The notes below the pieces were generated by a model that saw nothing but the letters and a program-made list of their open reading frames with translations, was not told the origin of the DNA and ran no database searches. A program made the translations under genes and the position numbers. This document shows, in pieces, positions 7,920-64,000 of a DNA stretch of 64,000 nt. The stretch's first letter is position 1; every line of letters begins with the position of its first letter. The stretch comes from Tribonema minus (lineage: Eukaryota; Sar; Xanthophyceae; Tribonematales; Tribonemataceae). The stretch covers positions 62,001 through 126,000 of the forward strand of contig JAFCMP010000088.1 in assembly GCA_017506865.1 (NCBI GenBank), given 5' to 3'.

Positions 7920-9575
7920 ACCCCTCAGCATGTCACCTGTGCAACTGCGCTCTTCTTTTACATCGAAAGATGTAGGAGATGGTGTTTGGCTTACTCAGTT
8001 GAGTTCAAAACACCCTTTGTATGAGACACCAGAGATCACACCACATGTTCTGCTTAGCTTGATTGGTGTGTACACATCCCCAACGCACGACGCGCAGATT
8101 CCCATTAATGACATGTTGTTGCTTCTTGCTGGCCATTCATCGTGATCACGCACACTCAGAGCTTTGCATGTTGTCTTTCTGCACGCGTCTTGCAGGGTGT
8201 ACAACGGGGGTGAAGTGTTCTGATGGCAGTGCGGCCTTCATGATTGGCCAGCGTTTGCCCCGTATAACTCCCCTGTACATACCCCCCATTGGAGCTACTT
8301 AAAAGGGGGGGAGGGCAGGGGCCCGGGAACAAGGTTCAGCATACGGATTGCGCTGGGCACAAATCATCAGATTGAAGGCACCAGTGTGAGGATCTCATAT
8401 AGTTTACACAGTCATGCCCAGATGTGCGCCCCAGATTGCAGGTTTAGCTGTTTTTTAGCGTTCAAGGCCGGAGGCGAGGCACGTATCCACATCATCGGCA
8501 TACAACGCACAGCTGGTAATGAACACATGTGGCGTGCTGTCGGCGAACTGTGCGTTGCAGTAGTTGCACGCTTTCAGTTTAAAATGATGAAATTCTACTT
8601 CTAGCTTGCTTGCAAATGATCTCGGGCGCTGCTCTTGGCCGCATGCTCAATGTCTCGCAGCACTGCAAGCCTGTCTTGTCTCGTGCGCAATGGCACCGGC
8701 TCAAGCTATGGTCAGCCCCAACATTACCGTTGTCGTGTTTACAACCGTGTATGCTTGACATGTTTGCACAACGTGGTGGTCCAGGCGGTCCCGACGTCCC
8801 TGGTTCGGCAGATGCGGTGCTTTATATGCTGAGCGCTGCATCATGCACATAGGGGGGCACATGGAGGAGGACGTAGGGGAGGACCCCGAGCTGCCATTTG
8901 GCGGCGGCGGCGTTTGAGTGGTTGTCGTTGCGACACTTTCAGACTGTCATACGACATGTAGATTCTTTACAGCTAGATGCCAATCATCTGGGCTTTTTCG
9001 CGCCCTGAGCGAGAATTAATAAAACATTGCACTTCCACAGCCACAAGTGGAATATAATAAAAGTACATAGTCGTTGCGACACTTTCAGACTGTCATACGA
9101 CATGTAGATTCCTTACAGCTAGATGCCAATCATCTGGGCTTTTTCGCGCCCTGAGCGAGAATTGATAAAAAGTACATAGCCACCAACATGAGAGAAACTG
9201 TCTGGCAGGGGGGCTTGACAGTTCTTTGTCGGACTGTTCTGACCTGGCCCTAACCCCAAAACAAGCACTTGACCTGGGCGTACCTACTTTCCAAGTAATA
9301 TGTCTCAGAAGCTGCAGCACATGAGAGTGCAAGCTGATCACGAGTGCATTCCGTAAAAAAAACAGAAACAAGCAAACACTTGCCAGCTGTTCGAACATGT
9401 TCGAACATGTTCATGCACGAATCCTAGGTGATCACTTTGACCAAGCCCTAACCCCGATTTCACCCCTTCAGGCAACTGTGATCAACTTTTTTTTCTTCTG
9501 TTTGTAGCATTCAGTTGTGCCTGACCAGCACAACCAACGCCCTTCTCTACCGCTCAAGGCGTACTCAGCAGCGTC
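7920..9575. other. Intergenic region, no supported gene
   Basis: No ORF with recognisable content was found on either strand. It contains the 146-bp tandem duplication at 8925-9179, a short gttcgaacat direct repeat near 9392-9412, and two ccctaacccc words near 9241 and 9446. It may contain the NF-YC 3' UTR and the aminotransferase promoter. Confidence 0.5.
8925..9179. repeat. Tandem duplication, two copies about 100 bp alike
   Basis: The block starting tcgttgcgacactttcagac at 8925 recurs at 9071. About 100 bases match with two visible mismatches. Copy 1 carries an extra ~36 bases (9025-9060) before the shared gtacatag end. Both copies end in AT-rich ataaaa words, so the duplicated unit could contain a polyadenylation region. 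Confidence 0.95.
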
Positions 9576-19527: not shown

Positions 19528-22500
19528 ATGTCGGTGGCATGTATTTGGTACATTGACGCTGCGGCTGCCCTGCCCGCAGGTGCGCCTACAGCCACCGCGG
19601 CAGTGTCACAAATTCAATGGACATCCCAGCCTGCCTTGCCACCACTGCCCGTGCAGCCCGCGGGCAGGGCGTACTGGGCCTTCGTAAACAGAGGCAGGAC
19701 CATTGATGCCAGAAAAATCGACAACGTCACAGCCCTTGCTACGGAGCAGGACAAGGACGGCGGCGGCAGCGGCGGCAAGGGTGACGAGGCGGACGATGCC
19801 GCCTCCTTTCAATTACGAGACGACCTCACGGCAGACAACGTTGGCAACTTCACGTACTATGAGCTGCTGGGCTTCGATAAGTATGGCACAGGCGTCACGG
19901 ACGACGGCCTCAAGAAGGCCTACAGAAAAGCTGTGCTTAAGTACCATCCCGACAAGGTTGGGGCTTCAGTCGCGGACGAGGGCGAGGAGGACGAGGTGTT
20001 CATCCTGATGCAGAAGGCATATGAAACGCTGACGGATGTCACCAAGAAAAGAGCATACGACTCGTCGCTGGAGTTCGACGACACCATACCTGCTGATGAT
20101 GCCGGCAAGAACGGCGATTTCTTCGAGGTGAGGCTATGGTTCTCAGATTGTGATGGGCACTGGCTCAACATATCACTAGAGCTGTCATGCTCAGCGCAGG
20201 GCTTTGGTGCACGTTTCTCACGCACGGGCTGTTGCGCATCAGTCAGTTCTGATCAAAATACCGATGTAGGCATCGAGCATGCATCAAGCACGAGCTGCTG
20301 CTTGCTTTTATTGCACCTGTCGAGAAGTTTCCTGCCCCCCGCAACCTCAAGTGCAGCTGAGTTTGACTGTGCGCTTCTGTGGTGTCAATTCATGAAAATT
20401 CTTTCAATTTGCTTCTTTATCTCTCAATGAAGAAACGCTTGAGGACTGTCGGCCGCAGCAGCAGGAGCACGCGACACTCAGCACGGCGAATGTGTGCCCA
20501 GCAGTGGGTGCCCAAGATTCACTAGCCCAATGGTCAATGTCATTATACACTCATTAGCTGTTACTCATAGTGTATTTACCCAATCCATTGTTGGCTTGCA
20601 CGTGCAGCGCAGAATGTGCTGCTCACACGCCAGAATGTGCTGCTCACACGCCGCCGAGGCAAATCACCCCTCCCATTTCTCAACATAGCAGTGTACATTG
20701 TTATGATAACATGCGCCGCTTGCAAATGCATGCCCACGTCCACGTCTGAATGTCGCCGTGCGCTGGGAAGCGCCGCGCCCCCGCCCTCTAGCCTCCAATT
20801 CCCCGAGAACACCTGCCATCTGCGGACAGATTTCTGGGGCGAACATATTTGACCCTTCTTACGAACCTGCCTTGCGATGCCGCCGCGTCAGGTGTACGGC
20901 CCTGTGTTTTCGCGCTACGAGCGCTTCGCCGTTGTCGTCCCCGCGCCGCTCTAGTCCCCAATTCCCCACGCACGCCCGCGACTTGCACTCTGGACGATTA
21001 ACCCTCCTTACGCACCCGCCCGCGCCGCCGCCGCATCAGGTGTACGGCCCCGTGTTCTCGCGCAACGAGCGCTTCGCCGTCGTCGTCCCCGCGCCGCCGC
21101 TCGGCGGCGACGACGCGCCCATCGAGGAGGTCAACAAGTTCTATGAGTACTGGGCGAACTTTGAGTCGTGGCGCGACTTCACGCTCGACTCGGCGGAGCA
21201 CAACCTGGACGACGCGGAGGACCGCTACCACAAGCGCTGGATGGAGAAGGAGAACGCCAAGCGCTCCAAGGACCTCAAGAAGAAGGAGTACAAGCGGCTG
21301 TCGCGGCTGGTGGACAACGTGAGTAGTGGCAGCGGCGGCCGGCGGCACCGAGCGCAATATGCACCCTGTTGCAGTAGCCGATGAGATGGTGCGATGTCTC
21401 TGCGGCAGCGCTCAACTGAAGCAGTGGTGTACTGGTCTGGAACGGTATTGATTCACTTTTGAATCACAATACACATACACCCAGAGTAGTTGCAGCACCA
21501 GAGTCGCGCAGGTAGGCGTCACGTGACGTTTTTTATCGTTGTGGTACTTGAAGTAGTCTATTCACGGGTGCTGTGTCTGCAGGTGACCGCATGCACTTTC
21601 AAGAGTGCACATTGTGCTGAATTGGCACTGGTAGGTGGTGTCTGCGACGGCTGCACACGTGCTCAATGTCGATGAGATTGTCGACAGACGTCAAACTGCA
21701 GTAAGTGACGTGCATGATGACTGTTTCCGGTCGTACATGTTCTTGAGGACACAAGTGCTCGCGTTTTGGACCCTATCAGGCACGGACAAGGCATGGGTCT
21801 GGTTTGTTGACAGAGTGACACATGGCAAAGTGGGCCAGAATCACTACAATGACCCACTGCAGCAGTGGGCGCACTCGTCAAGAACTTCCTTGATGATTTT
21901 AAGGATGTAGTCTAATGGTCAATTGTAGGTATATAGCCACGAATCGTAGGGGAGCGATCTCAAGGGCCACGCGTGTGTGCTACGTCCCATACTTACATGC
22001 CAAATGACGTATTGCATGCAGCCATGTGTGGGTACTACGACCCGTGCCTACATGCCACATGCAGTATAGGAACACCTTATTTGGCAGGCTGGGCTGCAGC
22101 ACTTGCTGGTGCGCGGTGCACTGACACTCACTACTGCTGTCCGCATGTATCATCCACCTTCAATTAGTGTGCTTCCACAAGCGATTCTTGGGTCGGATAC
22201 TGTGCCTGAATGCACGAGCGCTGTTGCGCACTCACCCCCCCCCATCCCCCCCCACACCCCAACCCTCAGGCGTACGCGGCGGACCCGCGCGTGAAGCGCG
22301 CGCGCCAGGCGGAGGCGGACGCCAAGCGCGCCAAGAAGGAGGCGCGCGAGGCGGAGAAGCGCGCCAAGGAGGAGGCCGCAGCCAAGGAGGTGGCGGACGC
22401 GCGCGCGGCGGCGGCGGCGACGGAGGCGGAGGCGGCGGCGCGCGCGAAGGACGCCAAGACGGTGCGCGAGGCCGCCAAGAAGGAGGCGCGCCGGTTGAAA

Positions 22501-28000: not shown

Positions 28001-30546
28001 GCCGCGCCGCGCCGCTGGCCGCTTGCGCGCATATGCTGCCAGGCTCCGTGATGTGCATCGTTGAGCGCACCCGCCCCCCCGCAGACACGCACACTCGGGG
28101 CCTGCAAGCGTTCGCCGCCCCGCCGTGCAGACCCTCACTCCTGGCCTTAAGCACCGCGCAAGCAAGCGTGTTGGGTGTCCGTGAAGTTGATGGTGGAGTT
28201 CGATCATACACACATGCGCGCGCGCGTACACGCAACGCCCTTGACCCGCATGCGTGCGCTGCGCGCTGCTGCGCAGACCTTCACGCCCGGCGCCGCCGCC
28301 GGCCGCGCCAAGCTCCAGGACTTCATCGACAACCGCCTCAAGCTGTTTGCGACGGGGCGCAACGACCCCAACGTGCACGCCTCCAGCGATCTCAGCCCGT
28401 ACCTCCACTTTGGCCAGGTGCGTGGATCGATGGGTGCGCGGCGTACTGGTGTGTATATAGAAGTATTCAACAGCAGCCGTGTGGTTTGGACACTCCCACT
28501 GCACTGGCCGGCAGTAATGCTCGTGCGAATGCCCACGCGTCAATGACGTGGCCCATGTCTGGAGCACTCGCGAGCAAGCTGCTCCGTGCTCACTGGTAGT
28601 CCACCCACTCCGACCCCTGCAAATGAAAACGAATCAAAAGATCGTAGAGCTCTAGGTGACAAAGGATGGTTGGCCGCAAGTGCCTTCCACCAATAATCGT
28701 GGTCGCCGCTGCTGCAGCAATTGGCCACGAGTCAAACAGTACCACCGTATACACCAGTCAAATCATGCACAACGAGTGCAATGAGTGTGCGCCAGTCGGG
28801 CTCTTGGGCATCTGCGCGGCGTGCCTCAGAGGAGGTGCGGCCGCGCACTGCGATTTTGTAAGTTAAATGCGCCGGCACGCCGCACGGCGTTTGTTATGCA
28901 CGCACCGGATCCTGAGCGCAACGGGTAACTGCCCTCTAAACACACCTTCGTGTCAGTAGCCGCAATCAAAATTGTCAAATTGCGCGCCTGTGCTGCTGAC
29001 AACACCACACCACCATACCTACCTGCCCCCCCATCCGCCGCGGCAGCTGTCCGTGCAGCGCGCCGTGCTCGAGGTGCGCGCGTCCAAGAAGTCCAGCGAG
29101 TCCACCAAGTCGTACGTCGAGGAGGCCGTCGTGCGGCGCGAGCTCTCCGACAACTTCTGCTTCTACAACGCGGACTACGACAGCCTTGCCGCCGCCGCCA
29201 ACTGGGCGCGCGACAGCCTTGCGCTGCACGCGTCGGACGCGCGCGAGCACACGTACACGCGGGACGACCTCGAGGCCGGCCGCACGCACGACGACCTCTG
29301 GAACGCGGCTCAGGTGCGCGCGCTGCTGCTGCGGTGCTACGTCGGGTGCTGCCCCTGCGCGCCTCCCCCGCTGCGCTGCACTGGCGGCGCCGTCTGTGCT
29401 GCGGCGTTGAGGGGGGGGGCGGCTGCAGCACCGCGCGTCGCGGGCCTCGTGGGCGTGTCGCATCGCGCTTTCTGCTGCTGCACATTCATCCAGTGCTTGG
29501 GGCGTGGCGTCCTTTGCGCGCGTTACAGGGGTTCAGCTCGGCTGCGAGGGTGCCCTTGCGTTGCTCGTTCACGTTCATCGGAGCACGAGTTCTGCGACAC
29601 TGCGTTCTCACGGCGCTTGCTAGCGCATCTCAGTGCGTGTGTTCTCCGCAGTGTACGTCACTGTGGGCGCTGTACAAGGTTCTGCAAGCGACCTCCACCT
29701 CAACTACTGCACTGCCCCCCCCTCCCCCGCGCCCCCTGCATGAACAGATCCAGATGGTGCAGGAGGGCAAGATGCACGGCTTCCTGCGCATGTACTGGGC
29801 CAAGAAGATACTGGAGTGGACGCCGTCGCCCGCGGAGGCGCTCGCGACGGCCATCTACCTCAACGACCGCTACGAGCTCGACGGGCGCGACCCCAACGGC
29901 TACGTCGGCATCGCGTGGAGCATCATGGGCATACACGACATGGTGAGGCGGCGATGCGCCGCGCTCTGCATGCTTGTGTGTGGCTGCTCGCGCTGTTGCG
30001 GCGCGTGTTGGCCTGTGACTTGGAACTGCCATCGGTGCGTGAGCGCGCTCAGCGCTGGCTGGTGCGGTGCTGCGCCAGTTCAGATGCGCACGGCGCGCCC
30101 GCGCGAAAGAGCGGCGTGTGCGCGCGCTGCTGCCGCCTGCGGGCTGCGCTCTGTTGTCGCCTGCCGTCGTGCAGCCTGCTGGCGAAACTGTGTGGTTCAT
30201 TGCATGCTGCCGCGCCGCACGTGAGAGCTGCTTTGCGCTGTTTTCTGACAGTCGTCTGTTCCAGCCAAGCACCCGCCAATTACTCCATGGTTGGCAGCCA
30301 CATGGCAATGGTCTGATTGCGCCGTTGCCATGTTGTGCGCCTTGCGGTCTGACACAGGGGTGGACGGAGCGGCCCATATTTGGCAAGATCCGCTACATGA
30401 ACTACGCAGGGTGCATGCGGAAGTTCAACGTCGCCTCATTTGTGGCGCGCTACCCCGCTGCAGTGGCCAACTGCAAGGCTGCGGGCGGCGAGCCTGCAAA
30501 GCCCAAGAAAGCGAGGGCGACGGCCACAAAGAAGAGCAAGAAGTGA
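25050..30546 (+). CDS. PHR2: Class II CPD DNA photolyase
   Basis: This FAD enzyme repairs cyclobutane pyrimidine dimers using blue/UV-A light. Model, 7 exons: 25050-25432, 26447-26756, 27285-27500, 28277-28417, 29047-29313, 29748-29942, 30358-30546; all phases agree. It gives 521 residues from the Met at 25185, or 566 from 25050. Class II signatures occur in order: [149 protein letters not shown]-like [27 protein letters not shown]. The C-terminus is a Lys-rich tail ([15 protein letters not shown]), a possible nuclear signal. The upstream in-frame extension ([18 protein letters not shown]) resembles an organelle pre-sequence, so two start sites could give nuclear and organelle forms; this is inference. 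Intron 4 carries a dispersed repeat. An AATAAA lies at 30590. Confidence 0.95.
28621..28746 (+). repeat. Intron-resident dispersed repeat, copy A
   Basis: A block of about 126 bp in photolyase intron 4. It is about 90% alike by eye, in inverted orientation, to copy C in the MTD1 intron at 40286-40411, and more distantly like copy B in a cycloartenol synthase intron at 35311-35426. The core shared text is tagagctctaggtgacaa and ccaataatcgtggtcgccgc. No coding capacity and no clear terminal repeats or target-site duplication are visible. Confidence 0.9.
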
Positions 30547-33207: not shown

Positions 33208-36200
33208 ACACCGCTGCTGCTGGTGCTGTCATTTTCACACGTTATCTAAGAGGTGTGCCTGAAAGCCCACACCTGCAGGCGACTGAGACTCATTTCGCTG
33301 ATGTCTCACGCTGCCGACATGTCACACACCTGCTGCGCCGCTGCAGCGCCATCGCCGCGGTCACGGCCACCGCGCTGTACTACCTCTGGACCAGCGCCCT
33401 CTCCTTCTACTACTATCAGGTCTCGCCCGTCGCCTTCCCGGGCGGCCCCAAGCCCGACCCCCTCACGCGCCTCGGCTCGTGGCCCGAGCGGGAGACGACG
33501 CTGGCGCCCGGCTGGCGCTTCCTCACCGCGGAGGAGTCCCACCGCCACACCGAGGCGCAGTGCGGGGGCGAGCTGCCGCTGCTGGGGGAGGCCGCGGGGC
33601 GCCAGATCTGGGTGCACGATGAGGGCCTCGCGAGGGCGCAGGAGGGGCGCGCGCTGCCGGCGTTCAGCGCCGCGCGCAATCCGAACGCGTCCGACCGCCT
33701 CATGCGCGAGCAGAACATTGCGGCGTGGCGCGAGGAGCGGCCGGCGGCGGGCGGCGAAGGAGGGGGGCAGGGGGAGGGGGAGGGGGGCAGCGCGCTGGAC
33801 GCGGCGCGCAGGGGGATCCGCTACTTCCAGATGGTGCAGTGCGAGGACGGGCACTGGGGCGGCGACTACGGTGAGCAACTTGCGCTGTGTGGGATGGCCG
33901 TGGGGACTCAAGCCTGCGTGTGCTGGCGGAGGTAGCTGCCGCTTGCTACCATGGGTTGCGCTGGCGTTACCTGGCCGGTCATGTGCGTTGAGCACAGGCG
34001 CCGGTCAATCCATCACCGAACTGGCTATGAGAATAGTTATTGTGGGACTGCAGAGGAGGGGCCTTTGCGTAGCCTGCGGCTTTAGAGACGTCGGCGTGCA
34101 CCTACTGCGTGTGCGTCTTGGTCACGCTGCAAGTGGTCACAAGCGCTCCCTCGCATTGACAAGCCATCGCCGCATGCTGACACAAAGCAACTTGCAGCAC
34201 TGCACTCGGTGTACGAGGCAAGCGAGCCAGCCATGGCATGCATTTGACGCCGCGCAGCAGCACCAAGTGAACTTCCTTCATCTGCCTCAGCACCTGCTGC
34301 ATCGCCTGCGCTGCTTCACCAACAAGAGCACCGCACCGCCGCCGCTGCCGCCGCCGCTGCTGCCGCCGCTGCCGCCACCGCTGCCGCCGCCGCGCAGGCG
34401 GCCCCTTGTTCCTCATGCCGGGCATGATCATCGCGCACTACGTGATCGGCGAGCCGATCGCGGGCGCGCGCGCCGCGGCCATGCGCCACTACCTCCTCAA
34501 CCACCAGCAGCGCGACGGCGGCTGGGGCACGCACGTCGAGTGCGCGTCGACCATGTTCGGCACGGCGCTCAACTACGTCGCGCTGCGGCTGCTCGGCGCC
34601 GCGCCGGACGCCGCGCCGTGCGCCGCGGCGCGCGCCTTCCTGCACGCGCGCGGCGGCGCGCTCATGACGACGTCCTGGGCCAAGTTCTGGCTCGCGCTGC
34701 TCGGCGTGTACGGCTGGGACGGCATCAACTCGGTGCCCGCGGAGATGTGGCTGCTGCCGCGCTGGCTCCCCTTCCACCCGGGGCGCATGTGGTGCCACTC
34801 GCGCATGGTCTACCTGCCCATGTGCTACCTGTACTGCCGCCGCTGGACGTACGCGCGCGCGGACGCGGACCCGCTCACCCTCGCGCTGCGCACGGAGCTC
34901 TACACGACGCCCTACGCCGCCATCGACTGGGACGCGCACCGCCACGCGTGCTGCCCCGAAGACGCGTACGCGCCGCCGCGCCCGGTGATGCGCCTCCTGC
35001 AGAACGCGCTCGCGGCGTACGAGCGGTGGGGGTGCGTGGGGCCGCTGCGCCGCGCGCGCGCGCGCGGGCTCGCGTTCGCCGCTGAGTACATGGCCGCGGA
35101 GGACGCGCAGACCAACTACATCGACATCGGGCCCGTGAACAAGGCGTTCCACGTGGTGGTGGCGTTCGCGGAGGCGGGCGGCGACGCGCGCGCGCCCGCC
35201 GTGCGGCGCCACCTCCAGCGCGTCGACGACTACCTGTGGGTCGCGGAGGACGGCATGAAGATGCAGGTGCGCGCGCGCGCTGCGGGACGCGAGGCAGCGC
35301 TCGACATCATGTATGGAAACGATGCAAAAGATGGTAGAGCTCAAAGTAGGCGACAAGGCGTGGTGAGCCGCCGGTGCCCTCCACCGATGACCGCGGTCGC
35401 CGCTGCGGGTCAAGCAGTGCCTCCATATATATATCATCTGGTCTCGTGGACGAGCGCCGCTGAGAGGCGCAGCGGCCGCGGTGACGGAAGCGCTCAGGAT
35501 GCGTGGACGCGGCGCTGCGGGCAGCGGCGCTGCGGGCGGCGGCGGCGCGGGTGTCGCCTCGTGTTTTCGACGCCAGATGGTGGACGTATGCTTGCGTGCT
35601 TGCTGGTGTGTGATCGCGGAAAACCGTACGCGGCGGACGTACGCTCGCACGGCAGCGGTGAGGAGGCGCAGCGCGGCAGGGCCGCGCCTTTGTCGCGCCG
35701 CTGTACCGCCGCATGTCGCAGTGCCGGCCTTCCGCGCCGCGCGACCGCGGCAGCGTTAGGGTCAGGGCCAGCGCTGTGCCAGCGGTCATGGTGCCCCTCG
35801 CGGGGCCAGTGCCTCGGCCATCAGCTGCGGATGACGTCAGGCTTCCTGTTTGCATCGCATGTCAGCTCTGTTGCGCACACTGATTTCTGCGCATCGGTGT
35901 CGCCGTGCTCACCCTGCCGCCGCCCCCCCTCCCGCGCCGCCGCAGGGCTACAACGGGAGCCAGTGCTGGGACACGAGCTTCATGCTGCAGGCGGTGGTGG
36001 ACACGGGCCTCGCGGAGGAGTTCCCGCTGCTGTGCCAGCGCGGCTGGCGCTACCTGATGCGCACGCAGGCAAGTCAGGGCCGCGGTGTGTGTATATGTAT
36101 CCTGCTTGCTGAAACATATGCGCTGAGGTGCCGCGCGGCGCTCTTGCTGTGGCCAAGATGTGTTGCGCGTCTATTGCGCTTGCGCGGTGTCTACGCGCTG

Positions 36201-39280: not shown

Positions 39281-42162
39281 TCATGCCTCGCCGTTGTCGA
39301 GCTTGGCCTTCTTGGCGGCGGACGGCCGCGCCGCGGCAAAGTTGCCGTGCAGGCGCAGCAGGTTGCGCTCGAGCATCGCGACGGTCACCTTGCCGACCAT
39401 GGGCACGTACTTGACGCCGGGCACCTGCAGGAGCTCCTCCTCGTGCACGTTCTTGAACGTCGACACGTTCACCACGACCGTCCCCGGCTGCACCCACTCC
39501 GTCACGAGCTTGTAGTCACGCGACGGGACGCCGCAGATGACGGCGTGCGAGCGGCGGATCGCGCCCTCCGCCGTCTCGTCCACGACCACGAGGCGCCCGC
39601 GCCGGAACTCGTAGATCGAGTCGATGTCGATCGAGTAGATGGTCGCGCCGTCGTTCGCGAGCATCGCCGCGAGCGGGCGCCCCACGATCTCCGAGCGGTT
39701 GATGATGGTGACGACCTTGCCCTCGAGGCGCGCGCCGACGGGCAGCGCCGCGTCGTACACGGCGAGGTGCTCGAGGATCTTGACGCACGACAGCGGCGTG
39801 CACGGGAGGATGCACTTCTGCGTCTCCGCGGCGTCCACGTAGCGCACGTTGCGGTAGAGGTTGCGCCGGTACAGGTGGCACAGGCCCTCCACGTCCTGCG
39901 GGGGGGGGGGGGCAGCAACGCTCAGTTCGCTGGTGCCACAGCGCGGTGAGCGTGTGTGTCGTGGGCACGCATGGTGTCGTTTTCGTGCTCCGATAAGTGG
40001 TGCCCGGGTTTGATCCGGTGCCATATGCAGAAATGCGCGGGTGGTGAAGTGAGCCGGGAGATGAAGTTTGTGCTGCATTGGCGTTAGCAAGTATGACTCG
40101 TGAAGCTTGCAGGGAGCCCCGGCGCGCATGATACGCAGTTACAACCTCGCCCGCAAGTATCATTGAAACAAGATTCTACAGCACTGCGTTTGGATGTGTC
40201 ATAAGTCAGAGTATTGATACTGAACACCCATGCCTCGAGTGCTCAAAAGCTTGCACACAGAAGTCTTTTTGCCTATTGTGGTTATGGTGGCACTGTTTGA
40301 CTCGTGGCCAATGACTGCAGCAGCGGCAACCACGGTTATTGGTGGAAGGCACTTGCGGCTAACCATCCCTTGTCACCTAGAGCTCAACGATCATTCGATT
40401 CGTTTTTCATTGAAGCACCGCTGAGCAAATATGCCAAATGTTGAAGCAGCGGTGCTGCGCATGCAAACAAACAAGGGGAGGTACATCATTGGTGCAATCC
40501 ACAATGGTGTGGTCCACTGCACTGCAAACTCTGAACACCATGCGCACAGACACATCAAAGCATGTTCGTCTGGCTGACTCATCGACAGGGCTGCGTCTGG
40601 CGGTGCGCTGTCAAGATGTGGCTGTGAGGCCCTATGACCATGGCGCACTTGCAACACCTCATGAGAGATAAACCCTACCATTGTGACAATGAAAGGCCCA
40701 TTATGTGAAGGTGCCACTGCGTTGATCATGATAAGACCTAGAACATGATCGGAGCAGAGCTCACTTTTAAGCTTGATTGAGATAGGGCGTGCTCAAATTA
40801 TGTCATCGCGGTCGACGAATTACTCAATTAGGTCATGGGGAGCTGCACAGGAGCTGTGATGGCGAACAAATTGCTGTGGCTCAGAACCGGGAAAATGACT
40901 CAAGATTTGCGATATGATACACAATGAGACAGTCGCTTCCTGTACTGTACAGTGCACAGTGCAATGCTACCATGCTCATGCACAGCGAGCACAACCAAGT
41001 CACCAAGTCAGCACTTGTGAGCTGCCAATTGACTTCCGTAAGTAGCGGGCGCCTTTTGATATTCATTGCTGGGCTGAGGACCATGAGCCAAATGGTGGCA
41101 TTATGTAATTTTGTAGTGTTGTGTTGCCGCACAACTCATGTGGTGCTCACGTTGCAACAGCGAGCTCTTATTGTAGGGCATTCCTCGAAGCCTGTAGCCT
41201 ACAACCAGGTGCATGATGTTGGTGTGTGCATGTTTGCAGCACAGCGCATGTGGTGCTCGCGTTGCAATAGAGAGCTGTTATTGTACACCATTCCCATAAA
41301 TCAGAATAAGAGTTGCATTGGTTGCAAGTGTTCTTCTCTCATGTGAGCTATAGATTTTTGTGCAGGCTGACTGCCGAGCAACAGCATGAACCAACCATGT
41401 GTTCACGTCAACACTTGAAGCTGCAGGAGACTTAAGTTGAAGTTGCATCAACGTGAGATTCTGGAGGGAGGCAGCATTAATGACTTCACCCGTTATAGTT
41501 TCAGTAAGAGTATGTGCCTTACCTTTTCATGGCTAATGCTGTCCCTGAGATAGTCATCCATGGTGCCGCCATAGAAGCTGGGGAAAGCACCGAACACAGG
41601 GTAGTACACCATGATGCCGTGCACGTCTGGGTCCGCATTTGCCTCCTCCAATTTTGTCTCCAGATCCTCCTTTGTGCATTCCCGTACCTGCCGGGGGACG
41701 CACAGCGAAGCAGCCCACGTGAATCTCAAGTCCACCCCAGGGACTCAGCAACATGTCACTGCTACTTCTGTGCGTTGATGTTCATCGCCGTGTCTTAGTA
41801 GTGACGCGAGACCCTACGATATGTTGGATATCCACAGCAATTGTGCAGTGTGTCAGCTGGAGCGCAAGCCGCAGCTACTGGACTGGTGTTCCTGTCCTTA
41901 CATGCGACGTCAGAGCGGCGGCGTGCCTCACCTCATATCGAATACCATCCCTAGCACAGGCCCGCCCTGTCCAGTCAGCGTATTTTTTGGCAGCAGGGTC
42001 GTTGTTGGCCAGCAGGCCCACCATTTTGGGCCCGACGCCGCCCAGCTTCTCCTGGATATATGTTTTGACCTCTTCCCTGAAGGGCTCGGCTATGAGGGCA
42101 GCATCTATCTTCTCGCCCGGAGGCAGGTCCTCTGCCACTACTGCTGCTGTCGCTGCTGCCAT
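39281..42162 (-). CDS. MTD1: NAD-dependent methylenetetrahydrofolate dehydrogenase, MTD1 type
   Basis: It oxidises 5,10-methylene-THF to methenyl-THF with NAD+ in the one-carbon pool. Model: exons 42162-41932, 41687-41523 and 39895-39281, phase 0 throughout, 336 residues, close to yeast Mtd1. Shared blocks are LLANNDPAAKKYADWT, GIMVYYPVFG, DVEGLCHLYRRNLYRNVRYV, ILPCTPLSCVKILEHLAVYD, INRSEIVGRPLAAMLANDGA and YVPMVGKVTVAML. In bifunctional dehydrogenase/cyclohydrolases the first block has Y-x-x-x-K, whose Lys drives cyclohydrolase. Here the site reads YADWT, as in monofunctional Mtd1, so cyclohydrolase activity is probably absent. The start ATG is 42162; no organelle signal is evident, so it is likely cytosolic. 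The C-terminal tail is basic (PSAAKKAKLD). Intron 2 is 1.6 kb and holds a dispersed repeat and a two-copy tandem repeat. The region 42219-42265 upstream has ctcaacttcat and aaacttcaagatcaagttga. Confidence 0.93.
40286..40411 (-). repeat. Intron-resident dispersed repeat, copy C
   Basis: The inverted counterpart of copy A, inside MTD1 intron 2. Relative to its host gene it lies in the sense direction, as do copies A and B. By eye roughly 12 of 126 positions differ from copy A. Confidence 0.9.
41129..41294 (-). repeat. Two-copy tandem repeat, 110-bp offset
   Basis: The block 41129-41184 (catgtggtgctcacgttgca, then gagctcttattgta) recurs at 41239-41294 with a few substitutions (catgtggtgctcgcgttgca, then gagctgttattgta). 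It lies in MTD1 intron 2, not far before exon 2. Confidence 0.88.
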
Positions 42163-43189: not shown

Positions 43190-43263
43190 TACTCCGAGTG
43201 GGGCTTGAACCCACGACCTTGTGCATGTGAAGCACACGCTACTGCCAACTGAGCTATCGAAGC
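43190..43263 (-). tRNA. trnV-CAC: tRNA-Val(CAC)
   Basis: On the minus strand this 74-nt sequence folds as a full cloverleaf. The acceptor gcttcga pairs with tcggagt (with G1-U72 and U4-G69 wobbles). The D arm is gctc agttggca gtagc. The anticodon stem tgtgc/gcaca is perfect around the loop ttcacat (anticodon CAC, plus-strand 43227-43229). The T arm is gtggg ttcaagc cccac. The discriminator base is A; CCA is not encoded and there is no intron, so it is a normal nuclear tRNA gene reading GUG codons, which are common in these GC-rich genes. Internal A and B boxes are intact. It is downstream of a TTTTTG stretch on the minus strand (43184-43189) that could end RNA polymerase III transcription. 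Confidence 0.95.
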
Positions 43264-54300: not shown

Positions 54301-57182
54301 AGCCGCCGCGTCCTCGTCCAGCGGAGCGCCGCAGGCGCTGCGCCCGGCAGGCAAGGCGCGCGTGGCGGCGGCGGCGGCGGCGGCGCATGCGTGCCGGACG
54401 CCGTGAGCTGGAACATTGTCATCGATGCCGCCGCAAAAGCCGGCGACTGGGGTGAGAGAGCGCTCGCTCGTGCGCGCGAGCACATGCTGGTCGTTTGCGC
54501 AGCGGGGGCGCGACTCGTTTGTGGTACCGCGTCGCACGCGCTTTGCTGGATCAGCAGCGGGCCGCCAGAGCTGCGACGCCTGCGCGCTTGTGCTCAGGGG
54601 CGGTGCGTGGGGTGTGTGTGTGGGGGGGGGGCGGTGCGCTCAATGCACTGTCGTCACCATGCATGCCCCTTGAGCAATCCGCATCGCGTCCTGAGCTGGC
54701 CCCCCCTTCTTTAACCTAGCCCTTATACACGACTCAATGCGTCGTCATCACCATACATGGCCCGTGAGCAATCTGCATCGGTCCTGAGCCATGCCCCCTA
54801 CCTCAACCTAACCCTTACCTCCCCGTATTCTGCCCCCTGGTCCCCCACCGTGCCGCGCGCCAGCGCTCGCCCTGTGGCTTCTGTCCGATATGAAGCGCCA
54901 CGGCATCGCGCCCGACTCCGTGTCGTGGGGCAGCGCAATCGACGCGTGCAGCCGCGGCGGCAACTCAGAGGCAAGTGGCCGATTGCATGTGGCACGTTCG
55001 GCATGACTAAGTGCACGTGTGACGCACCTTCAGTGGCCAGCGGCGCGTGCCAATGTCGTGCAGCCGCAGCGGCAAGTGGCTGATCGCGACGCAGCATGCA
55101 GGTATTCGCGCCAGCAGCGGTCGATGAGTGTCGTCGAAGAAGCGTGGGTCTTGCACACCTGCAGTCGCCGCGCGGCAGCTTCATGAACACGTACGCCCCA
55201 TGATGGGCTGCAGAGTGGGCAGCCGCGGCGGCAACTCTGAGACAAGTGGCCGATCGCGTCGTGGCATGTGCATCGCGACCAAGGGCTCGTGTGACGCACC
55301 TGAAGGTGGCCAGCAGCGTGCCAATGTCGCGCAGCGTGCTGCGTCTGTTCTCCCGCCGCACCTCCTCACCCGCCGTGACCACGTGGTAGGCGTTTGCGCC
55401 GGCAGCGGTCGACGAGCGCTGTGTCGAAGCGCGCGTCTCGCGCTCTTGTGTCCGTTGCGGCAGCTCTCTGTGAACACGTTCCATGATGGACTGCAGGGTG
55501 GGCCGTCCGCTGCGGCGCGACGAATGTGCGCGGCTGCTGCTGCGAAGCGCCTCATTAAGCCGTCGGTGTGTCTGTAGCGAAAACGCGGCCTCACCAGGGG
55601 GGGGCGGGGGGGCCGCCGTGACCAGCACGCAGCCACGCGCTTGGGCGATGGCACATGGCGCATGTTGCCAGCGGCCGGCGCTCATCGCGCGCATCGCGTG
55701 GCAGCACGTGTGCATGCCCTTCATTTCTTGTGCGAGCGTCGCACGCGATCTGGTCTCGCATGCATCTATGTCGGCAGTGCCGAGCATGCATCTATGTCGG
55801 CGGTGCCGAGTCAGCGTCTCATCGCACCTGTGCTGTGCCTGCCAGCTGCAGGGGTTTGCATCAGGGCTGGTGGCCATCGCGCGACCCCAGTTAGTTGGGT
55901 GGCGACGCGTGATCGTCGCAGCAGCACCAAGCGCTCAGCACGTGATGCCGGCACCGTGAAGCGCGATTATTGAAGTACCACACGTTGCGTCGTGCGCACG
56001 GCCACACGGCACACTTTGATGCTCGCAGCAGGCAATGCAATGACACCGTGGCCGCCCTGACTGATGACAAGCACTGCTGGAACAGACACGCACCGCTCGC
56101 TAACTCTCAACAATCCCCCCCCCCCTGTCCCCCCCCCCCCCCCCCCCCCCCCCCCGGCAGGCCGCGCTGGCGCTGCTGGAGCGCATGCGCGTGCACGGCG
56201 TCCCCCCCGACGCCCACGCCTACGCGAGTGCCATGAGCGCCTGCCAGAAGGCCAAGCGCGGCGACGCGGTGCTGGCGCTGCTGCGGCAGGCAAGGGGGCT
56301 GCGGCTTGACTCGATGACTTGACTTGACTTGGAGGGCGTTGCGCGCATGCGCCGCCGCTGCGGCCGTGGTGCGGCTCAGGCAGACGGCGTGCCTGCTCGA
56401 CGCGCAGCGCGGAGCATTGCGTGTTGGCGCAGTATGAGCAGCTGATGGTGGTTGCGGCTGGCACTGGTATGGCAGCGCTCGCACGCTGCGGCGCGTGCTT
56501 GTGCAGCGGCGGCACGGCGTGATGGCGCCATTGAGCCTGTGGTTGCAGCATGCAGCCCGCGAGTCGCGCACAGCAGAGTGGGCAACCTGCCGCAGCACAA
56601 GCGCTCGCGCCGCTATAGCGCCGCGTGCACCACCCGCACCCACCTTAAGCTTGGCTCACGCCCCCCCCCCACCCCTTGTCACCCCCCCCCATACACCACA
56701 CCCCGCCCCCGCCCCCGCAGATGCGCGCGGAGGGCCTGAGCCCGACGGCGCACCACCTCGCGCCCGGCATCCACGCGTGCGCGCGCGCCGGCGACCACCG
56801 CGGCGCCCTCGCGCTGCTCGCCGAGCTGCCTCGCCCCGACGCACACGCGTTCGGCGGCGCGATCCTCGCGTGCGCGCGCGCGCGCGCCGCGCCGGCGCCG
56901 CGCTGCGGCTGCTGCGCGACATGGCCGCGCGCGGCGTCGCGCCGACGCGCTTCTGCTACAACGCGGCGCTGGGCGCGGCGGCGCGCGGCGGCGACGCGGA
57001 GGGCGCCGCCGCGCTGCTGGCGGAGATGGAGGCGGCGGGCGTCGCGCCGGTGAGAGGGGGTGTGCGGCATGTGTACACGTGTGTAGGGGTGCTGGTTTTG
57101 CCATTGCTGCTGCTGCGGCCTCTCCTGGTAGTGGGGAGGGTGCTGGTGGTGGTGCTGCTTTGGCGGCGGCTGTGGTGGCGGC

Positions 57183-60357: not shown

Positions 60358-63300
60358 TCATTGCGTGCTGCCGTAGTTGCCCGTCGAGCGCCGCAGCAGG
60401 CGCCGCGCAGGGTCGCCGCCGCCGCTGCCGCCGCCGCCGCCGCCGATGCCGCCGACGCTGTTGAAGCTGCCGTTGCTGCCTGTCACGGAATCCGTGCTCT
60501 GGTGCCTCGGCAGGCCGGCGGGGACCGGGCGGTGCGAGAACGCGCTGCGCATGAGCGAGATGGCCAGCTGCTGCCGCAGCCGCTGCGCCGCCTCCTTGGC
60601 AGCAGCCAGCTCAATCTGCGGCGCACGGCGGCAAGCGGAGCGCGCACGCGCAAGCGTGAGAGGTATCGCCTGATGGGTAGATGGCATGGGGGCGCGAGCA
60701 TACGCGCCAGCGTCGCTACGCCTCCTTCGGTGCAGCGACGGAACAAGGGCGCGCCCAGCAGCATGAAACAATTCATGAAATTGCAGACTGCCGTACACAG
60801 CCAAGGGCGAAGCGACGCGCGCGCTGCGCCCTGCCCGCCGCCGCGTTGGCAACAAGATTGCATGGCATGCATATGCACGCCATGTGCGCTCTCGTCCGCT
60901 GTGACAGTCGAGCAGGTGAGCACTAGGGCAGCAGATGCAGCACGTATTGGAGTTATGTAATGCATCACTCAAACTCCGCGCCGCCGCGGCAGAGCCGCCG
61001 CACCTCCAGAGTGTCCACGTGCTCGTGCAGCTCCTGCAGCTCCATGCTCTCGCGCGCCGCCGCCTCCTGCGGCCCCCAGAAGTTGGACAGCGTGCGTGGC
61101 ACGGGCGCCAGGTGCACCACGTCGCTGCTGCCGCCGCCGCCGCCAGCGCTGCTGCCGCGCCGCCGCGCGTGCGCCGCCACCATGGCGCCGCCCACCGAGT
61201 CCCCCACGGCGTAGCTGTCGCCGCCGCCGCCGCCGCCAGCGCCGCAGTCCGCAGCATGGCTCAGCAGGCCGGTCGCGCGGTCGTCGTCGTCGCTGCTGTA
61301 GCCGTCATCGGAGGCGGAGGAGCAGGGCGACGGCGGTGCATAGGGCGGCGACGGCGCCGCCGCGGCGGGCACGCGTGCGCCCATCCAAGCTTGCACCACG
61401 AAACCGAGGAGCACGGGCTAAGGGGGGGGGGGGGGAAGTGCGGGGCGCGGGGGGGGGGGGAGGCAGGGGGCAGCAAGTCAGTCAAAGCTGCGCCCACTGC
61501 GTGGGTTGTGACATACCGATGTCCATGCCAAGCAGCAAACGACCTTTGTCAAACGACCTTTGTCAACCAATACACACACGCATACGTGCATAAATGTATG
61601 CAATTTGTGTAACTGTATGATGAAACAGGAACGTACTGGCTCTGAACGAAGACTAGAAGCACAAGCGCGCAGGCCAGCAGAGTGGCAGCTCCCCTGCGCA
61701 CTCCATTACGTCTGAGTTGCTCCTGTCAAGACAACAGAGCAAAGACTAGTGCAGAGCGATTCTCGACTGCCGGCGACTTGCCTGTATGAAGTACAGCGTG
61801 AGCACTTTGAAGAGGTAGAAGAACCACCACGCTGGCCAGCCGATGGCCACGAACGCCGCGTCCATGAACAGCGTCCAGTTGCCCAGCAGCAGCGTGTCGA
61901 GCATGGACAGCAGCGAGTCGCCAAAGCTCTCGTAGCCCACCACCTCGCTGTACGCCATCCAGCGCTTCATCATGGGGTTCGCAGACACGGCCGTTGTGTC
62001 CTGCACGCCGAGGGGGCTGCGGAGCGCGTCGCAGGGGGCGTCACAACAAAGCAGTGAAGTTGATGTTAAGTTGGGGTGAAGGTGGAGGTGGAAGTGACAC
62101 GGCCGTCGTGTCCTCCACGCCCAGCGGGCTGCGCGCGCGCCGCGGAGGAGCGCGTCGCGCAGGGGGCGTCGTAACAAGGAAGTGACATTGAAGTTGAAGT
62201 TGAAACGAAGTTGAAGTGAAAGTGATGATGGTCGTGGCCCACCACCTCGCTGTACGCCATCCAGCGCTTCATCATGGGGTTCGCTGACACGGCCGTCGTG
62301 TCCTGCACGCCGAGGGGGCTGCGGAGCGCGTCGCACGGGGCATCACAGCAAGTGAAGTTGATGATGATGTTGAAGTTAAGGTAAAGGTGGAAATGAAAGT
62401 GAGAAGTGTGGCGACTCTCGTAGCCCACCATTTTGCTGTACGCCATCCAGCGCCTCATCATGGGGTTCGCCGACACGGCCGTCGTGTCCTCCACGCCGAG
62501 GGGGGCTGTCAACAAGGACGTGAATTTAAAGTTGAAGTAGAAGGGAGACGGAAGTGAAAGTGAGAATCGTTGGCTGGGACTAGCAAGCAGCGCCTGTGGA
62601 CTTCTAGTGCCCTGCAGATGTATATACCTAAGCAACAATATCTTGGCGGTGTTAATGTAGCGCATCGCTGTGAGGTGCAAGCGGCAAGATGACAGGGCGG
62701 GGTGACGGCCGCATCAAGATCGATGGATGCCGCCGTCGTGTCTTGCACGCCTGGCAATAACCACACATGATGACAACGTGTGCGAGGCTTGCGTGCACGG
62801 CAACGGCTGAAAGCAGGAAATGCCGCCGTCGCATTTGCATATGCTGTTGTGTATGGGAGCAACCGTGTTCCGTGCGAATGGGTGCGCAGGTACGGAGTGC
62901 ATCGTTGCGCCGACAGCAGTGCACCATCACATGGATGCCCTGACAGGCGGCCCAAGTTTGCAAGCAACCCATGCGTCTACAGACTCAGCTTGCAGAGTAG
63001 GACCGTGCATGGTGAGCATGTAAGGGTCAGCGCAATGCATGCCTTGAGTGGCTGACCCTAAGACTAGCCCTAGCCCCAACCCCGATGCTGCGATGCATGC
63101 CAGCCAGCCAAGTCCCAATGTCAGCTGGTCCTGGCAAGCAGGTGAAGTCAGCCACATTCCTCAGCCTGCAAGTGCAGTGTTTGATCCTTGCAAGTAGCAA
63201 TAGCTAGCACTAGCGTATCCACTTCTCTTGTAGGCGAGTTCTCGACGCTTGCATGCTGCGCACACCTTGCCAATGCTCAGCGTGCCTGCAGAGTCTACGC

Positions 63301-64000
63301 CTTGTCTGGACCCAACTCATGGATGTGCTGGTCGTGAGGCGAGCTCCCGCGTGCTCGCCATCACAGAGCCTACCGTGACCATGACGCACCTGAGTGCCCG
63401 CAGCACTCCCATATCAGCTTACAGGCATTCCCACCCGCCGCTGTGCTGCGTGCGGTGCACTCGTGCGCAATGTGGTGAGCGCCTGTGGCACTACACGCAC
63501 ACACGCACACACGAACACACTATCAATGAGCACAAGAGACCATGAGAAATGCAGGCGTTTGCGCAACGCGCAACAGACCGCTACACAACATGCGCGCCGC
63601 GGCCGCCCACTCACGTGTGCCACAGCATGCCGTACGCGCAGAGCGCGGACGAGTACACGAACGCGAGCAGGACGGACGTCGAGCGCAGCAGCGTCGGCAG
63701 CACGCGCGCGAGGCGCTCCGCGACGTCGGAGCGCGTCCCCTGCAGCTGGTGGACGACGCGCCACAGCCCGAGCGCGCGCGGCGCCATGGCCACGTAGTAC
63801 GCGCGGTCACGCCCCTCGGGCCACGCGCCCGCGACCCACGCCGTCGCGACGGCGTTGAGCGCGACGCCGAGGCACCAGTACGCGTCCGACAGCGCGCGCG
63901 CCGCGCCGCCGGCCCAGAGCACCGCCGCCGCGTCCGCCCAGAAGTACACGACGAGGGTGTACTCGAGCAGCGCCATGTGGAGCTCGCGCCCCTCGAAGGC
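60358..64000 (-). CDS. TPC: Two-pore-type voltage-gated cation channel, C-terminal part
   Basis: The 5' part lies outside the window. Exons (descending): beyond 64000-63615, 62016-61782, 61722-61633, 61417-61004 and 60615-60358; 460 residues are visible. The first exon ends a voltage-sensor-like region (RALGLWRVVHQL) and a hydrophobic S5 (LLRSTSVLLAFVYSSALCAY). Exon 2 has the pore loop SLLSMLDTLLLGNWTLFMDA, whose L-x-x-G-N-W-x-x-x-M-D/E pattern resembles the second filter of plant-type TPC1 channels, followed by IGWPAWWFFYLFKVLTLYFI. The S6-like helix ends VLLGFVVQAWM. A long Gly/Ser/Asp-rich cytosolic tail follows, then a coiled coil (ESMELQELHEHVDTLE-IELAAAKEAAQRLRQQLA) and a Ser/Gly tail. 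TPC channels conduct Na+/Ca2+ across vacuolar or lysosomal membranes. With half the protein unseen, another ion-transport family member is possible. The exon 2 donor is GC (gcaagt); the donor after 61633 (gttcct) is weak. Confidence 0.72.
62016..62760 (-). repeat. Tandem array: acceptor plus exon-start units in the channel gene
   Basis: Upstream of the working exon (acceptor at 62017-62018) lie further copies of its opening, each with an AG acceptor and preceded by a pyrimidine-rich intron end. The units are about 62095-62231 (short; acceptor-side text and GVEDTTAVS), 62232-62414 (PLGVQDTTAVSANPMMKRWM then AYSEVVG), 62415-62569 (PLGVEDTTAVSANPMMRRWM then AYSKMVGYES), and a remnant at 62728-62757 (GVQDTTAAS). 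Each unit ends where the next intron-like tract begins, so none carries the pore-loop part of the exon. Confidence 0.93.

Follow-up and report, generated by a model that had tools for sequence, protein, structure and literature searches.

Introns of Tribonema minus probably lengthen through serial short tandem duplications that straddle exon edges, a process that appears to be common throughout the genome and whose products seem to decay neutrally. One such case lies in an ion-channel gene of the analysed window, that is, the whole 64,000-nucleotide stretch of contig JAFCMP010000088.1, where the end of one intron and the beginning of the following exon are repeated several times. A broader claim, about evenly poised between right and wrong, is that introns in this lineage grow largely in this way, as a neutral ratchet of edge-straddling duplications that adds decoy exon starts and ends. 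If true, introns would here lengthen mainly by a route not described before, the arrays would offer a natural setting in which to study splice-site choice, and the spliceosome would have to choose consistently the outermost site among the decoys. Intron lengthening and the choice of splice sites among similar candidates are questions usually approached with single cases; this genome appears to hold many donor and acceptor arrays of different ages in conserved genes, which could allow direct measurement of how fast such duplications arise and decay and of which splice sites are chosen.

In the channel gene, four head-to-tail units occupy 61925-62590 on the reverse strand at a spacing of 112-190 nt, present where the initial annotation had placed them (Table 1). 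Each unit consists of a pyrimidine-rich intron end with a CTTCAA-type stretch, followed by AG and by the beginning of one exon, of which at most about 100 nt are included, so that three further copies besides the real junction are found between 62017 and 62590. A 39-nt core of the units recurs at start-to-start intervals of 112, 190, and 186 nt, the distances of the copies from c1 being 112, 302, and 488 nt. The direct repeats were also recovered independently, and self-comparison of the window aligns c1 with c3 at 89% identity over 169 aligned nt and with c4 at 92% identity over 90 nt. The fifth, remnant member that had been proposed is likewise present: c5 has an alignment score of 35, compared with a best score of 30 among 2000 dinucleotide shuffles of 62600-63600, and this score lies below the limits used in the copy search at 19 junctions and in the divergence analysis described below. 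It was also correctly noted that copy 1, the last in transcript order, is alone in running on into the pore loop.

Table 1. Coordinates of the channel-gene array and of other duplicated exon edges in the window
Feature	Position	Strand	Evidence
Upstream channel exon, S5 side (...CAYGMLWH + AC), last base 63615	63616..64000, continues past window	-	Open frame; Pfam Ion_trans E 0.0049, below curated cut-off
5' donor GTGAGT of 1.6-kb intron, phase 2	63609..63614	-	Read from sequence; outside duplicated units
Real pore exon PLGVQDTTAVSANPMMKRWMAYSEVVGYESFGDSLLSMLDTLLLGNWT..., start 62016	61782..62016	-	1/5 acceptors tested keeps frame
Copy c1, repeat unit of real junction	61925..62100	-	Repeat alignment; runs on into pore exon
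Copy c2, extra unit, would-be exon start 62128	62095..62232	-	Exon part 29/33
Copy c3, extra unit, would-be exon start 62318	62228..62412	-	Exon part 46/48, intron flank 49/56
Copy c4, extra unit, would-be exon start 62505	62410..62590	-	Exon part 45/48, intron flank 30/37
Remnant c5, exon-start fragment	62732..62751	-	19/20 nt; 0/2000 shuffles reach score
Zuotin-like gene, extra copy of intron end + AG + exon start	20849..20949	+	87% to 20998-21097; exon part 44/48, intron flank 42/52
Real zuotin-like junction and exon, start read as 21040, inferred GTGAGT donor	20998..21318	+	Pfam ZUO1-like_ZHD E 1.9e-31
PPR-like exon end, GC donor GCAAGT at 54971	54872..54970 (start chosen for search)	+	Pfam PPR_2 E 1.5e-4, below curated cut-off
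Copy of PPR-like exon end + mutated donor + intron start	55219..55516	+	71% to 54948-55232; exon part 22/23, intron flank 49/56

The units differ in extent and condition. About 70 nt of the exon part are absent from c2, which carries inserts of 2 and 14 nt ahead of its AG; in c4, the G+C-rich part ahead of the AG is missing and one extra C follows the AG, shifting the phase. The intron flanks align with the real flank over 36/44 positions in c2 (z 12.0), 49/56 in c3 (z 22.7), and 30/37 in c4 (a weak z of 3.4), and the array is made of duplications that cross the intron-exon boundary, as in the potato case considered below, with the flank of c4 only weakly aligned. It is at the same time a head-to-tail genomic duplication with an identifiable source. 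The 2-kb array region has a single genomic match in 158 Mb, and the protein of the pore exon finds three matches in the genome, every one of them within the array. A mobile element or a paralogue as source was ruled out on the basis of that single match. The codon CAG is common to c1 and c3, and GAG to c2 and c4, a pairing in the sequence that may point to one duplication of a two-unit block. Separately, exon sequence just past the unit end (61915-61931) recurs inverted at the end of c4 (62401-62417; 17 nt, 82%), which could be a template-switch scar or a matter of chance.

The gene, known here from a partial model, is probably a two-pore channel, judging from a weak sequence likeness of both of its domains to TPC2 and TPC3. 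Domain I passes the Pfam cut-off for Ion_trans (E 6.4e-7) and, compared with solved structures, has TPC2 chains (6nq0/8ouo) as the sole hits listed at E 1, at E 0.14; the second domain matches Ion_trans at E 0.0049, below the curated cut-off. Once S5, pore, and S6 of the second domain are joined, the best structure match is TPC3 (6v1q), a weak one at E 0.099, whose alignment spans the array junction in the loop ahead of the pore helix. The Pfam search with the pore exon on its own gave no match, and a query of the second-domain exons that lacked the S6 tail found nothing at E 1 among solved structures. The real acceptor AG of the pore exon lies at 62018-62017 in the context CGCAG, and the exon ends at an apparent GC donor, GCAAGT, at 61781-61776. 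Splicing to c1 yields MLWHTPLGVQDTTAVSANPMMKRWMAYS...DTLLLGNW in frame, and read-through from the acceptors of c2, c3, c4, and c5 meets a stop before the pore. Because the frame stays open into the pore from c1 alone, the intron looks older than the array and would have grown, not been born, at this place. About 1 kb of intron, holding the remnant c5 alone, lies between the donor at 63614 and the array.

Duplicated exon edges are also found elsewhere in the window, in a zuotin-like and a PPR-like gene (Table 1); the extra copy in the zuotin-like gene runs into a TAG. A GC donor of the form GCAAGT is read twice in the window, at 61776-61781 and at 54971-54976, and GC-AG introns, as read from these sites, may not be rare in the Tribonema minus genome.

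In all, 55 partial exon-edge copies, those of the window included, were collected at 19 junctions, comprising donors and acceptors and selected for having arrays. The intron flank aligns at z >= 4 against shuffles in 35 of these copies and is not convincingly aligned (z < 4) in the other 20. Among 20 exon segments adjoining arrays, ten match Pfam at E 0.1 or better, and seven pass the Pfam cut-off, representing EF-Tu (two), UPF0029, Oxidored_FMN, RanBP1, carbonic anhydrase, and zuotin. In one EF-Tu gene (locus L014, 6700-10000), a single exon is preceded by seven extra exon starts and followed by ten extra exon ends, the latter being copies of exon end plus donor with 88-94% identity in the exon part, and the large introns of this gene are filled with copies of its own exon edges. 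In the UPF0029 gene (locus L011), neighbouring exons match profile positions 8-55 (below the cut-off) and 58-107, and copies are present of the donor of the first exon, of the acceptor region of the second, and of the donor of the second; the copy at the acceptor region stops short of the AG. Exon-edge copies occur at several junctions of an actin-related gene (L041), which was reached via an actin query and not through its repeats, whereas none were found in the actin-family loci L038, L039, and L040 or in alpha-tubulin; L039 and the alpha-tubulin locus contain one local duplication each, outside the matched exons. This contrast is possibly linked to expression level.

The frequency of such arrays was estimated in a sample of 264 kb, consisting of the window and 20 loci of 10 kb for which contig number and position were the sole criteria (every fourth contig, C4 to C80), a systematic and not a random choice. 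With low-complexity repeat pairs removed before arrays and spacings were counted, the sample contains 60 local direct-repeat arrays spanning about 25 kb, and at least one occurs in 19 of the 20 sampled loci. Repeat pairs within 700 nt are direct in 124 cases and inverted in 3, and their spacing modulo 3 (42/35/47) shows no 3-nt periodicity. By eye, several arrays appear to lie in non-coding DNA, and a few fall within coding sequence of a repetitive kind. One edge of a predicted exon, the predictions being ab initio for most loci, is straddled by 20 of the 60 arrays, nine at acceptors and eleven at donors when assigned by strand, compared with 8.6 +/- 2.6 under random placement (0 of 2000 placements reach 20), an observed-to-random ratio of 2.3. 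A cruder survey based on unrefined exon ends, which is insensitive, recorded repeats at 6/52 acceptors, 2/49 donors, 8/176 random non-exon positions, and 1/81 positions in exon interiors; there, edges lie near the non-coding background and not clearly above it, and exon interiors have fewer repeats. Local duplication as a cause of intron growth, one of the readings originally offered for the channel array, is supported both at that array and across the genome sample.

The divergence of the copies bears on their fate after duplication. Forty-nine copies reach the junction, of which 39 keep AG or GT and four more have GC; retention in 39/49 is approximately what a per-site divergence of 9% would lead one to expect (0.91 squared = 0.83). 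Averaged over 48 copies, the exon part departs from the real edge by 0.09 and the intron flank by 0.22, compared with 0.32 in a control with reversed sequence; in 40 of the 48, the flank is the more diverged of the two. The excess of the flank beyond a simple model may be due to detection bias, alignment error, or gene conversion. Differences between real exon and copy amount to 47/772, 39/773, and 128/763 at the three codon positions, roughly threefold more at the third, a pattern that could reflect either constrained copies or a real exon that changed synonymously once it had been copied. Private changes, present in one copy only, help to distinguish these readings and were tallied by codon position at those 13 of the 19 junctions that have at least two copies. 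With a tighter alignment, they number 32/616, 27/638, and 45/457, an excess at the third position, and 87/518 in introns. With a wider alignment, in which inner and outermost copies were kept apart, private changes reach 0.066/0.049/0.085 in inner copies (p 0.10) and 0.086/0.091/0.112 in outermost copies (p 0.36), and 14 of 15 indels in the copies are not multiples of three. Given the lack of a significant codon-position bias in the wider alignment and the frame-breaking nature of 14 of the 15 indels, the copies most likely decay neutrally, to judge from their sequences; weak constraint or gene conversion may act on them. The initial annotation had described the codons of the extra copies as conserved, with mostly conservative changes. 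This holds in so far as a third-position excess is left in the tighter alignment, whereas the wider one gives no significant bias, and the conservation is better explained by the copies being young and by synonymous substitutions in the real exon. Similarity to the real exon rises with proximity to it (p 0.034, 13 arrays), which is what duplication at the real edge would produce; the channel array is an exception, since c3 has diverged less than the middle copy c2 despite its greater distance.

According to the proposed mechanism, serial short tandem duplications, spaced at 112-190 nt, would span the acceptor end of an existing intron and the opening part of the exon that follows. Every duplication would leave one junction contiguous with the remaining exon, and all sequence upstream of it would become intron, so that use of the outermost acceptor would leave the protein unchanged and the intron longer. 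In the mirror case at donors, where exon end, donor, and intron start are duplicated, the same outcome would follow. A duplication within an exon would usually harm the protein, whereas one that straddles an edge should be as tolerable as an intronic one because splicing from the outermost site would restore the message. The copied exon edges would afterwards decay, most likely neutrally, and frequent duplication would lead the introns of many genes to hold partial exon copies with splice sites. Ordinary short tandem duplication would be a sufficient cause, and the excess at edges over random placement could arise as the conserved real-exon partner keeps a pair detectable for longer. We infer that the outermost splice site is used, that duplicates arise at the real junction with newer ones nearer to it, and that introns grow as a net result. 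Splice rules favouring the shortest intron would pick the wrong sites in such arrays, and gene finders may mistake edge copies for exons or alternative acceptors.

Several other explanations of the arrays were weighed. It is unlikely that the extra acceptors serve as regulatory decoys that are partly used, with truncated messages being degraded and the level of the channel thereby tuned. Such a role would fit the close acceptor copy in c3, where splicing would start in frame and stop about 80 codons later, as well as the stops met on read-through from c2-c5, the AG or GT kept in 39/49 copies, and the third-position excess under the tighter alignment. However, that retention is close to the prediction from 9% per-site divergence, the wider test has no significant codon-position signature while 14/15 indels are frame-breaking, and similar arrays in unrelated genes and on both sides of exons fit a mutational cause. 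The earlier suggestion that decoy acceptors control splicing may hold but draws no positive evidence from the copies, which decay in the wider alignment without significant codon-position bias and keep AG/GT about as often as neighbouring bases would predict. A cause acting at the junctions themselves, in the form of splicing-linked or RNA-templated copying in place of DNA tandem duplication, would account for arrays that straddle predicted exon edges 2.3 times as often as random placement. This is very unlikely, as intron sequence is included in 35/55 copies, the copies stand head to tail and are found at both donors and acceptors, non-coding DNA has local direct repeats as well, and the edge excess can stem from detection, the real exon being held constant by selection.

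Intron birth in progress, whereby a duplicated stretch containing an AG would have made formerly exonic DNA removable, had also been raised, and a precedent exists in potato RdRp, where a duplication across an intron-exon boundary created an intron (PMC4974935). In the channel gene, however, the old intron end is already part of the copied units, which do not include the donor at 63614; about 1 kb of intron separates this donor from the array, and micro-exons ending at the in-exon GT of GAG/GTGGTG would be expected to shift the frame. The idea is disfavoured and deserves hardly any credence. A search for a new donor of the form GTAAG or GTGAG, extending 110 nt from the c2, c3, and c4 acceptors, found none, and the GCGAG of c3 is also present in c1. 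The same result counts against tandem alternative exons, in which every copy would be an exon with its own donor. The longer copies do hold an in-exon GT, as in GAG/GTGGTG, and the GCGAG in c1 and c3 is a possible GC-type donor, but the pore helix is present in c1 only, read-through from c2-c4, which do not have it, meets stops, c2 is truncated, and the copy-to-c1 distances of 112, 302, and 488 are not multiples of three, making this arrangement extremely improbable. An assembly artefact might be suspected in an assembly of 554 contigs; yet the channel copies differ by 4-12% from the real exon edge (46/48, 45/48, and 29/33) and from one another by indels, and similar arrays recur on many contigs, so the probability left to it is close to nil.

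Serial duplication across exon edges, the preferred reading, can be set beside systems already described. Gao and Lynch reportedly proposed in 2009 that internal gene duplication propagates introns, whole introns being multiplied; intragenic tandem duplication that changes exon-intron structure is the common element, whereas here one exon edge only is involved. In PMC4974935, the potato RdRp gene is described as having obtained a new spliced intron through a tandem duplication across an intron-exon boundary, and as containing a separate 83-bp duplication within its first intron. The resemblance is that the duplication takes in the branch site and pyrimidine tract along with the AG and the start of the exon (PMC4974935). 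There, a single event recruited a cryptic donor from the exon and produced a new intron (PMC4974935), whereas Tribonema minus has multi-copy arrays at donors and acceptors of many genes, with no clear new donor, and it is the old intron that grows. That source (PMC4974935) also covers the Rogers AGGT duplication model, vertebrate ATP2A1, and the 24-bp AGGT repeats of fission yeast, in which the intron spans four or two duplicates. In these AGGT systems too, tandem duplication provides the splice signals; however, they start from exonic AGGT DNA, whereas here an existing junction is copied. Introners, as characterised in PMC9860276, are dispersed mobile elements alike between genes that grow intron sequence genome-wide, and growth of intron sequence across the genome is the feature shared with the present arrays. 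An introner identity was rejected for the channel array, which is local and has a single match in 158 Mb, not many copies in unrelated genes. An exact-term search of the open-licence PMC literature retrieved no report of genome-wide exon-edge arrays; single boundary-crossing duplications are already known, as in potato RdRp.

Other repeats and RNA genes were noticed in the course of the analysis. A 128-bp dispersed element occurs in the window at 28622-28749 (+), 35313-35406 (+), and 40283-40411 (-), and at least 40 scored genome copies, the window's included, show 97-100% identity, among 2057 candidates. The element has no Rfam match, no splice-site ends were seen in it, and it is possibly SINE-like; sequence similar to it adjoins a flavodoxin-like exon in locus L008. 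At 8924-9170 of the window, two 101-bp copies lie 146 nt apart at 98% identity, apparently just past a stop codon, and seem to be the product of a very recent, non-coding duplication, and a 61-bp local duplication with 84% identity is found at 41124-41294 in apparently non-coding DNA. At the Rfam gathering threshold, the window has a single match, a tRNA gene at 43190-43263 (-). Fragments of 18S from the genome may be of stramenopile type. Elsewhere in the assembly, six 18S-like matches, 88-100% identical to a universal fragment, fall on contigs C300, C259, C305, C270, C303, and C434, some of which are small, and the rDNA copies appear to be heterogeneous or error-rich.
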